64,000 nt of DNA from an uncultured Macellibacteroides sp. (GTDB lineage Bacteria > Bacteroidota > Bacteroidia > Bacteroidales > Tannerellaceae), in assembly GCF_963667135.1 (NCBI RefSeq), contig NZ_OY762974.1, positions 4,397,458 through 4,461,457 on the forward strand, given 5' to 3'. The first letter of the stretch is position 1. Every line of letters begins with the position of its first letter. A program made the translations under genes and the position numbers. Below are positions 24,442 through 64,000 of the stretch, in pieces. Below the pieces are notes generated by a model. That model was not told the DNA's origin, ran no database searches, and saw only the letters and a list, made by a program, of their open reading frames with translations.

Positions 24442-24607
24442 TATACTTTTTTAATATATTACACATTTTGACATAAAATGTGCAGCACAAAACATTCAAT
24501 TCTGTGCAAACAACCTTAGTAAACAGCCAAACTATTTTTGCATTTAAAGCAAATTCTTCGATAATTTATGAAGAAAACATGTTTCATTTTTTATTACAAT
24601 TCAATTC

Positions 24608-24640
24608 TTTTGGTTGAGAAAAAGATAGTTTGTATTTTTG
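24608..24640 (+). promoter_or_regulatory. Promoter of queC-queF
   Basis: TTTTG at 24608-24612 and TATTTTTG at 24633-24640 are separated by 20 bases, a good match to the Bacteroidota -33/-7 promoter. Transcription would begin near 24647, just ahead of the aptamer. Confidence 0.65.
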
Positions 24641-24660
24641 TATCCGAAGGGATTTTCTTC

Positions 24661-24692
24661 CGTGTACTTGCAATACCACGTAAAAAACAAGG
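24661..24692 (+). promoter_or_regulatory. preQ1-I-like riboswitch aptamer before queC
   Basis: The order of parts follows a class I preQ1 aptamer. P1 is CGTG (24661-24664) with CACG (24677-24680). L1 is TA, the P2 5' strand is CTTG (24667-24670) and L2 is CAATA. The unpaired C24676 directly before the P1 3' strand matches the ligand-reading cytosine. The A-rich L3 TAAAAAA is followed by CAAG (24688-24691), which pairs with CTTG to close the pseudoknot. The spacing equals the B. subtilis queC aptamer as I recall it (2, 4, 5, 1). P1 is one pair shorter. The controlled genes make preQ0/preQ1, which is what such a switch senses. Downstream, AGGAA can pair with TTCCT, or that strand with GGAA, giving possible alternative folds; the expression platform is not clear. 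Confidence 0.72.
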
Positions 24693-24777
24693 AACAACTT
24701 ATATAATTTTCCTAACGGAATTTCAAAGTATATACAGAACTCTCCCCTCCTATTTATTAACTGTAAAAGAAACAAGT

Positions 24778-25437
24778 ATGAAAAAAGAAGCCGCAATGGT
24801 TTGTTTTTCAGGGGGACAAGATTCCACAACATGCCTTTTCTGGGCTAAAAAACATTTTAAGCATGTAGAATCAGTATGTTTTACGTATGGACAAAAACAT
24901 TCTGCTGAAACTATGGTTGCGCATAGCATAGCCGATAATGCCGGAATTCCGTTTCAACTTCTGGATGTATCTTTATTAGGACAGCTTTCCAGCAACTCAT
25001 TAACAGACAGTTCTATCGAAATGGATACAGAAAAGCCCTCCGATAGCTACCCAAATACATTTGTGCCAGGTAGAAACATGGTATTCCTTACATTGGCAGC
25101 CATCCTTGCCAGAAGCAAGGGAATCTTTAATCTTGTTACCGGCGTTTCGGAGGCTGACTTTAGTGGATATCCTGACTGTAGAGATACCTTTATCCGATCA
25201 CTTAATGTAACTCTTAATCTGGCCATGGATGAACAATTTATTATTCACACACCGCTGATGGATAAAAATAAAAGTGAGGTATGGGAAATGGCAGACAAGC
25301 TGGAGGTATTTGATCTGATAAGAAATCAGACGCTAACATGCTATAATGGCATTCTTGCCGACGGGTGCGGTCATTGTCCGGCCTGTAAATTAAGAAAAGA
25401 AGGATTAGAAAACTATTTAAAACGTAAAAATAACTAG
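24778..25437 (+). CDS. queC: 7-cyano-7-deazaguanine (preQ0) synthase
   Basis: ATP-dependent conversion of 7-carboxy-7-deazaguanine to preQ0 in queuosine synthesis. The 219-residue protein starts [19 protein letters not shown], with the P-loop-like SGGQDS of the ATP pyrophosphatase fold, and has the zinc cysteines in [13 protein letters not shown] near the C-terminus. The reading frame is open to 24568, but the added 70 residues cover the promoter and aptamer and are not family-like, so 24778 is the start. queF begins one base after the stop. queD and queE are not in this cluster. Confidence 0.95.
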
Positions 25438-25438
25438 A

Positions 25439-25891
25439 ATGAACGAGCAAGAATTAAGCTTACTAGGAGGCAAAACCGTATATAAAAGTGACTATACGCC
25501 CGAAGTCCTTGAGGCTTTCACAAACAAGCATCAGGACAACGATTATTGGGTACGCTTCAATTGTCCCGAATTTACAAGTTTATGCCCGATTACCGGTCAA
25601 CCCGATTTTGCAACGATATATATAGACTATATTCCTGACATAAAAATGGTCGAGAGTAAAAGTTTAAAACTATATTTATTTAGCTTCCGTAATCATGGTG
25701 CTTTTCATGAAGACTGTGTAAACATTATCATGAAAGACTTAATAAGACTTATGGAACCCAAATACATCGAAGTTAAAGGAATCTTCACGCCTAGAGGTGG
25801 TATCAGCATTTACCCGTTCTGTAACTATGGCAGAAAAGGAACTAAATACGAAGGACTCGCAGAAAAACGTCTTTTCGCGCACAACTCATAA
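25439..25891 (+). CDS. queF: NADPH-dependent preQ0 reductase
   Basis: Reduces the nitrile of preQ0 to the amine preQ1. The 150-residue protein is a single-domain (YkvM-type) QueF. The catalytic Cys lies in [21 protein letters not shown], and [11 protein letters not shown] provides the conserved Glu-type site region of the T-fold. It follows queC with one base between them, so both are under the same leader. A hairpin terminator follows. Confidence 0.95.
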
Positions 25892-63920: not shown

Positions 63921-64000
63921 ATTGCAGGCGGCAATGTTTGTAACTGTGAAAGAGATGAGGGAAGGCCCCTCGTAACCGTCTTGCAGGAGATGGTTGCAAA

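Follow-up and report, generated by a model that had tools for sequence, protein, structure and literature searches.

A probable class I, type II-like preQ1 riboswitch at the 5' end of the queC-queF mRNA in Bacteroidales

The 5' end of the queC-queF mRNA in the window (the whole 64,000-nucleotide stretch of DNA that was analysed) is best explained as a class I, type II preQ1 riboswitch, a reading to which a probability of about 0.9 can be given from sequence comparison. The leader is very probably a class I, type II-like preQ1 sensor; this assignment is drawn from the covariation of its two helices, P1 and P2, the retention of the binding-pocket bases, the AC that precedes the P1 3' strand and the genes to which the element is linked. 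An earlier note, made from the letters of the window, had proposed a class I preQ1 switch at this place, and that reading is supported by covariation in P1 and, thinly, in P2, by a near-complete pocket and by linkage to queC, yhhQ and queD-queE.

Organisation of the leader

Direct reading of positions 24661-24691 confirmed the pseudoknot that had been described before queC; the 31 bases are CGTG-TA-CTTG-CAATAC-CACG-TAAAAAA-CAAG. The features of the region are the following.

24609..24640, + strand: promoter, with TTTG at 24609-24612, then 20 nt, then TATTTTTG at 24633-24640 (from the sequence)
24646..24660, + strand: P0 hairpin GAAGGG-ATT-TTCTTC, 24646-24651 pairing with 24655-24660, including two G-U pairs; it abuts P1
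24661..24691, + strand: putative class I preQ1 (type II-like) aptamer (from sequence, homologues and alignment)
24661-24664, + strand: P1 5' strand CGTG, pairing with the P1 3' strand CACG at 24677-24680
24665-24666, + strand: L1, TA (from the sequence)
24667-24670, + strand: P2 5' strand CTTG, pairing with the P2 3' strand CAAG at 24688-24691
24671-24675 and 24676, + strand: L2, CAATA, and the specificity C (from the sequence)
24681-24687, + strand: L3, TAAAAAA (from the sequence)
24692..24777, + strand: aptamer-queC spacer of 86 nt, containing CTCCCCTCCTAT at 24742-24753
24778..25437, + strand: queC, 7-cyano-7-deazaguanine synthase (NCBIfam TIGR00364, 247.4 bits, cut-off 150.3)
25439..25891, + strand: queF, preQ1 synthase (type II QueF) (NCBIfam TIGR03139, 174.5 bits, cut-off 86.9)

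The genome to which the window belongs is a single contig of 4.46 Mb. The TTTG-N20-TATTTTTG arrangement agrees with the Bacteroides promoter consensus, which has TTTG at about -33 and TAnnTTTG at -7 (PMC7366714). The ATG of queC lies at 24778, 86 nt past the aptamer end, and the queC reading frame is open upstream through the aptamer, back to an ATG at 24568 (window 24568-24778). Just 5' of the queC ATG, at 24772-24776, there is a second ACAAG, a lookalike of the P2 3' strand that could compete for CTTG; it is absent at the corresponding place in the related leaders L212 and L219. At the far end of the window, an Rfam group II intron D1-D4-2 match (63957-64000) runs off the window end.

The promoter and P0 were followed through 113 leaders (63 of queC and 50 of yhhQ, with the contigs L002/L194 and L003/L209 counted twice). 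In 94 of them, the TAnnTTTG element occurs in the 75 nt preceding P1, whereas mononucleotide shuffles average 4.7 and reach 11 at most. For the hairpin, the set was reduced to 104 leaders by dropping leaders that were identical over the last 20 upstream bases or had fewer than 40 bases upstream. A score of at least 10 for a hairpin ending exactly at P1 was reached by 38 of the 55 queC leaders, where shuffles gave 3.3 on average and 9 at most, and by 22 of the 49 yhhQ leaders, where they gave 2.6 on average and 6 at most; this excess drops off once the scanned interval is shifted. Tannerella-like leaders have no P0, and their promoter TAnnTTTG ends 2-4 nt ahead of P1.

Distribution and covariation

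A QueC match was obtained in 84 of the 123 genomes of the family of the window (Tannerellaceae), and of the 78 family loci examined, a strict pattern detected the motif ahead of queC in 50 and not in the other 28. This recurrence places the pseudoknot beyond chance, together with a second copy in the genome of the window, located before yhhQ, which was matched by the covariance model R1 with 50.9 bits (E 4.3e-7) and lay outside its training set. The strict pattern had missed L171, L184 and L203, which have a five-base L2 and were later recovered; L174, L210 and L218 were judged variants by eye; L191 is degenerate. In L174 (1410-1487), about 43 nt are inserted in L2, where a hairpin is possible by eye, and P1, P2 and the tail are intact. 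The covariance model R2 gave no match at E 0.1 in 22 of the 24 pattern-negative family queC loci, so many relatives lack the motif before queC. In four of these 22 loci (L222-L225), queC directly follows yhhQ, and the fetched stretch stops inside yhhQ; R1 has a match (L256) before yhhQ of G078, the genome of L225.

R1 was built on A1, an alignment of 27 distinct aptamers from queC leaders, with P1 alone given as pairs and with no yhhQ or queD leader included in the training. Searched against 393 Bacteroidales genomes, it produced 62 matches in 53 of them, a lower bound obtained with stricter filters, and three of the 62 are training sequences. The genes located 3' of the matches are yhhQ in 50 cases, queC in 10 and queD-queE in one, and the last match, L290, was discarded as a chance hit; queuosine-pathway genes lie downstream of 61 of the 62, as they do in all of the 21 matching named loci described below. 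In L292 the aptamer precedes QueD and then QueE, the former above its NCBIfam cut-off and the latter well matched but below it. With fuller filters, all eight of the chosen Tannerellaceae genomes were matched at E 1.3e-4 or better; two of the eight have a queC leader without the motif, and in one no queC was found. In G001, which belongs to the same genus as the window, no queC was found, yet an aptamer stands upstream of yhhQ.

R2 matched 21 of 32 named Bacteroidota loci at E up to 0.1, including Bacteroides, Phocaeicola and Paraprevotella, and the first que gene past the match is YhhQ in 17 and QueC in 4. Six of 395 Bacteroidota genomes were matched by R2; four of them are Bacteroidales, and the strong matches occur only there. 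Spread beyond this order was rejected, as the two other matches are weak, at 26.5 and 25.5 bits, and no QueC, QueF or YhhQ occurs in the 3 kb fetched for them. When R2 was applied to 55 Firmicutes and viral-contig queC loci, nothing was returned under E 0.7. Additional copies were observed in two cases: L310 carries two aptamers 734 nt apart (1501-1534 and 2235-2268), apparently one leader for each of two tandem yhhQ genes, in a genome of about 550 contigs, and L312 (1501-1534) is a third copy in the same-species genome G002, located before a second YhhQ that is 56% identical to P0003.

Covariation in the two helices had been named as a check on the proposal. In the alignment A2 (78 rows), 15 cells are changed on both sides, compared with 1.1 in shuffles. 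The larger alignment A3 was fitted to the model and holds 100 matches from 99 loci, selected for matching, which give 99 distinct rows; duplicates and L289, L174, L012, L009, L014 and L022 were excluded. In A3, 98.3% of the 785 P1/P2 cells are paired versus 92.0% in shuffles, 29 cells are changed on both sides versus 3.5, and the covariation score is 0.153 versus 0.043. The two-sided changes fall at three of the four P1 pairs, with counts biased towards the model because the P1 pairs, and not those of P2, are built into it, and at one of the four P2 pairs; the check thus came out positive for P1 and thinly so for P2. The P1 changes convert C-G to A-U or G-C and U-A to A-U, while the P2 changes comprise three cells, all at one C-G pair, which becomes A-U in two rows and U-A in one, so that the support for P2 is modest. 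With slid P1/P2 partners only 18-68% of cells are paired, although slides of +1 and +2 columns still yield 11 and 10 two-sided cells, and the pair-type count of A3 was equalled by 21 of 500 shuffles.

As to the letters, P1 is CGTG/CACG in 76 of the 99 rows, CGAG/CTCG in 6, AGTG/CACT in 6, AGAG/CTCT in 4, GGTG/CACC in 2 and CATG/CATG in 1, plus four others, and P2 is CTTG/CAAG in 87, ATTG/CAAT in 2 and TTTG/CAAA in 1, plus nine others. Four Bacteroides-type rows break two P2 pairs; in these leaders P2 pairing may be partly non-canonical, as it is reported to be in Thermoanaerobacter tengcongensis (Tte).

Relation to known preQ1 riboswitches

In the class I preQ1 site, a C stands before the P1 3' strand, the floor is a G-C pair, and L1 supplies a U and L3 an A; the O6 of the floor G contacts the aminomethyl group of preQ1, and AC before the P1 3' strand denotes type II, UC type I (PMC11625349). 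In A3, the specificity C, which is C24676 in the window, stands directly before the P1 3' strand in all 97 rows with a letter there, and the remaining two of the 99 have a C in an insert column. The floor G and the floor C are each present in 99 of 99 rows, the L1 U in 98 and the A before the P2 3' strand in 99, the four bases preceding this strand being A in every row. The dinucleotide is AC in the 97 rows with a letter, as in type II (PMC11625349), and not the UC of type I. The features of class I are also found, namely an H-type pseudoknot, a P2 formed between L1 and the tail, and an A-rich L3.

The leaders share with the class I type II riboswitches of Tte and Bacillus subtilis the H-type pseudoknot, the AC before the P1 3' strand, the G-C floor, the U in L1, the A-rich L3 and the presence of Q-pathway genes downstream. 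Furthermore, the tail ending in AAAACAAG of the Bacteroidales leaders is presumably as in Tte, and the loop TTCTAG of the Bacteroides variant of the aptamer is one that we take to be as in B. subtilis. They differ from both in a 4-bp P1 with little letter change, in a P0 that abuts P1 in many leaders and in the failure of the Rfam model RF00522 to recognise them. Moreover, P2 is here mostly CTTG/CAAG and fully Watson-Crick, whereas Tte has two of four canonical steps (PMC11625349). The preQ1-II and preQ1-III riboswitches (RF01054 and RF02680) share the ligand and the target pathway but have larger folds and other pockets (PMC11625349), and both families are absent from the Rfam matches of a 601-base stretch at E up to 10.

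A covariance-model hit with RF00522, which the earlier note had named as a check and whose absence it had listed first among the refuting outcomes, was not obtained. In the window no match reached the cut-off, and the 601-base stretch gave none with E up to 10; on a 43-base stretch RF00522 was the sole family listed, with 11.8 bits against a gathering cut-off of 39 and only the tail aligned. The model likewise gave no match in 30 motif-carrying loci (10 including that of the window, and 20 more). In the positive control it exceeded the cut-off in 9 of 18 Firmicutes queC loci (18 of 48 fetched) and in the Bacteroidota locus L261, upstream of a gene identified by eye as yhhQ. Because it is insensitive to the motif loci though this control passes, RF00522 was rejected as an arbiter of identity here.

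None of 364 Bacteroidales genomes has an RF00522 match over the cut-off, and 43 have sub-cut-off matches at E 0.1. Eight of ten fetched loci with such a match are upstream of queC and have a type I look by eye. These eight (L320-L324, L326, L328 and L329) belong to other Bacteroidales and are type I-like preQ1 leaders of divergent queC genes, with scores under the cut-off. There is no positional overlap between the 50 RF00522 matches listed for Bacteroidales genomes and the 62 R1 matches. With these type I-like leaders beside the AC-type ones, two class I preQ1 types seem to be in use in the order. The type I-like leaders of Bacteroidota also precede queC or yhhQ, but they have UC before the P1 3' strand (by eye) and other P1 and P2 letters.

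Type I has been reported in Bacteroidota, with a similar distribution for type II (PMC11625349), and the novelty of the present family is limited to that extent. The family is not described in the portions available of PMC3766115, PMC11625349, PMC11089507, PMC11130926, PMC2258182, PMC6593275, PMC10570037 and PMC10043782, and it is not claimed to be unpublished; the words 'preQ1' and 'queuosine' are absent from the main text of the B. thetaiotaomicron transcriptome paper (PMC7366714). The notable points are the Rfam blind spot, the hairpin abutting P1 and the wide regulon. A well-known small riboswitch would be extended to queC-queF, yhhQ and queD-queE in an order with gut genera (Bacteroides, Parabacteroides) in whose 364 scanned genomes the Rfam model stays below its cut-off. 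The leaders also offer a compact test case for how a translation-type riboswitch works without Shine-Dalgarno sequences, and for the effect of an aptamer lying about 70-170 nt from the start codon.

Proposed control of expression and its alternatives

In the proposed mechanism, the RNA would fold as an H-type pseudoknot with P1 (CGUG/CACG) and P2 (CUUG/CAAG), in which the C ahead of the P1 3' strand would pair with preQ1, the L1 U and the A before the P2 3' strand would read the other edge of the ligand, with a G-C pair as the floor. Plentiful preQ1 would close the knot and presumably lower the expression of the preQ1-making genes, and yhhQ, which encodes a queuosine-precursor transporter, would presumably be lowered separately under the same condition. 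In the yhhQ leaders and most queC leaders, in which the knot ends at most 10 nt from the AUG, closure would structure and mask the start region.

Such masking is likely in the short-spaced leaders. An ATG stands within 10 nt of P2 in 104 of the 113 leaders; since the rule used accepts the first ATG that is no more than 20 nt from the gene start, the smallest distances are not always those of the gene's own start. Members of the phylum reportedly have no Shine-Dalgarno sequences and adjust initiation through structure close to the start (PMC6847099), and closure of the knot could therefore plausibly block initiation directly. All nine leaders without a close ATG belong to queC, and two come from the species of the window; the remark in the earlier note that a gap of 86 nt is unusual agrees with these counts. 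One of the long-spacer leaders, L212, has ATGs 1 and 5 nt past P2; the short frames that they open before queC run to 8 and 5 codons by eye.

With the queC AUG 86 nt away, the species of the window would need another route, and the mechanism of its long leader is put forward as a hypothesis, the first guess being that 5' strands of the aptamer pair with the spacer. In the window this anti-aptamer pairing did not stand out from that with shuffled spacers (p 0.156); in the other long-spacer leaders p was 0.968 (L212), 0.08 (L219), 0.798 (L250), 0.174 (L252), 0.703 (L262), 0.006 (L263) and 0.024 (L265), and since the low values of L263 and L265 come from one family, no such pairing is claimed for the window. 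A platform in which the spacer pairs with the P0 5' strand was set aside: p was 0.192 in the window, 0.007 in L212 and 0.067-0.723 in the other six long-spacer leaders, and combining the three family leaders gave 0.031, all eight 0.055. The competing AGGAA/TTCCT and TTCC/GGAA pairings suggested as the platform in the earlier note are thus not established, as the window duplexes of the leader 5' parts did no better than shuffles in either comparison.

A wider picture can be offered tentatively, at less than even odds. The leaders might constitute a class I subtype of the Bacteroidales' own, with a canonical 4-bp P2 and with P0 stacked on P1 at the mRNA 5' end, that switches translation without a Shine-Dalgarno sequence by structuring the start, and the lineage of the window might have re-coupled the aptamer to queC via a long leader with a different, undescribed platform.

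It is possible, though rather unlikely, that the long leader acts instead on transcription elongation, by preQ1-dependent pausing or by Rho-dependent termination in a C-rich, G-poor spacer. The window spacer has 17 C and 8 G, and the B. subtilis class I type II aptamer works on transcription (PMC11625349). However, the C excess is uneven among the long spacers (L262 has 23 C and 34 G), and a consensus scan, which overlooks stems having fewer than three G-C pairs, found no intrinsic terminator between the aptamer and queC.

This missing terminator also speaks for an explanation that we consider unlikely, in which the aptamer of the window species folds but the 86-nt spacer disconnects it from queC, leaving yhhQ alone regulated. 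Consistent with such uncoupling, all exceptions to the close ATG are queC leaders, and the pairing of the window spacer never beats shuffles. On the other hand, the window species and all seven of the long-spacer leaders L212, L219, L250, L252, L262, L263 and L265 have an intact aptamer, which favours its continued use, and CTCCCCTCCTAT is common to the spacer of the window and the long spacer of L219.

As regards the ligand, we infer that it is preQ1. The same pseudoknot could in nature be bound by preQ0 or queuine, which appears improbable. The leaders often govern the transporter, as in the 50 yhhQ matches of R1 and in G001, where no queC was found; furthermore, QPTR proteins vary in substrate among bacteria (PMC11130926), and a Tte class I structure with preQ0 has been reported (PMC11625349). 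Against another ligand, the bases of the preQ1 alpha-site are kept, including the floor G that contacts the aminomethyl group. Finally, it is highly improbable that the motif is a protein-binding site or other conserved leader element rather than a riboswitch. Its very high conservation (87 of the 99 rows have CTTG/CAAG) would look alike under sequence recognition by a protein, but both helices have pairs changed on both sides, the bases agree with the preQ1 pocket, an insert is tolerated in L2 of L174 and the Bacteroides variant has the loop TTCTAG, all of which speak against this reading.
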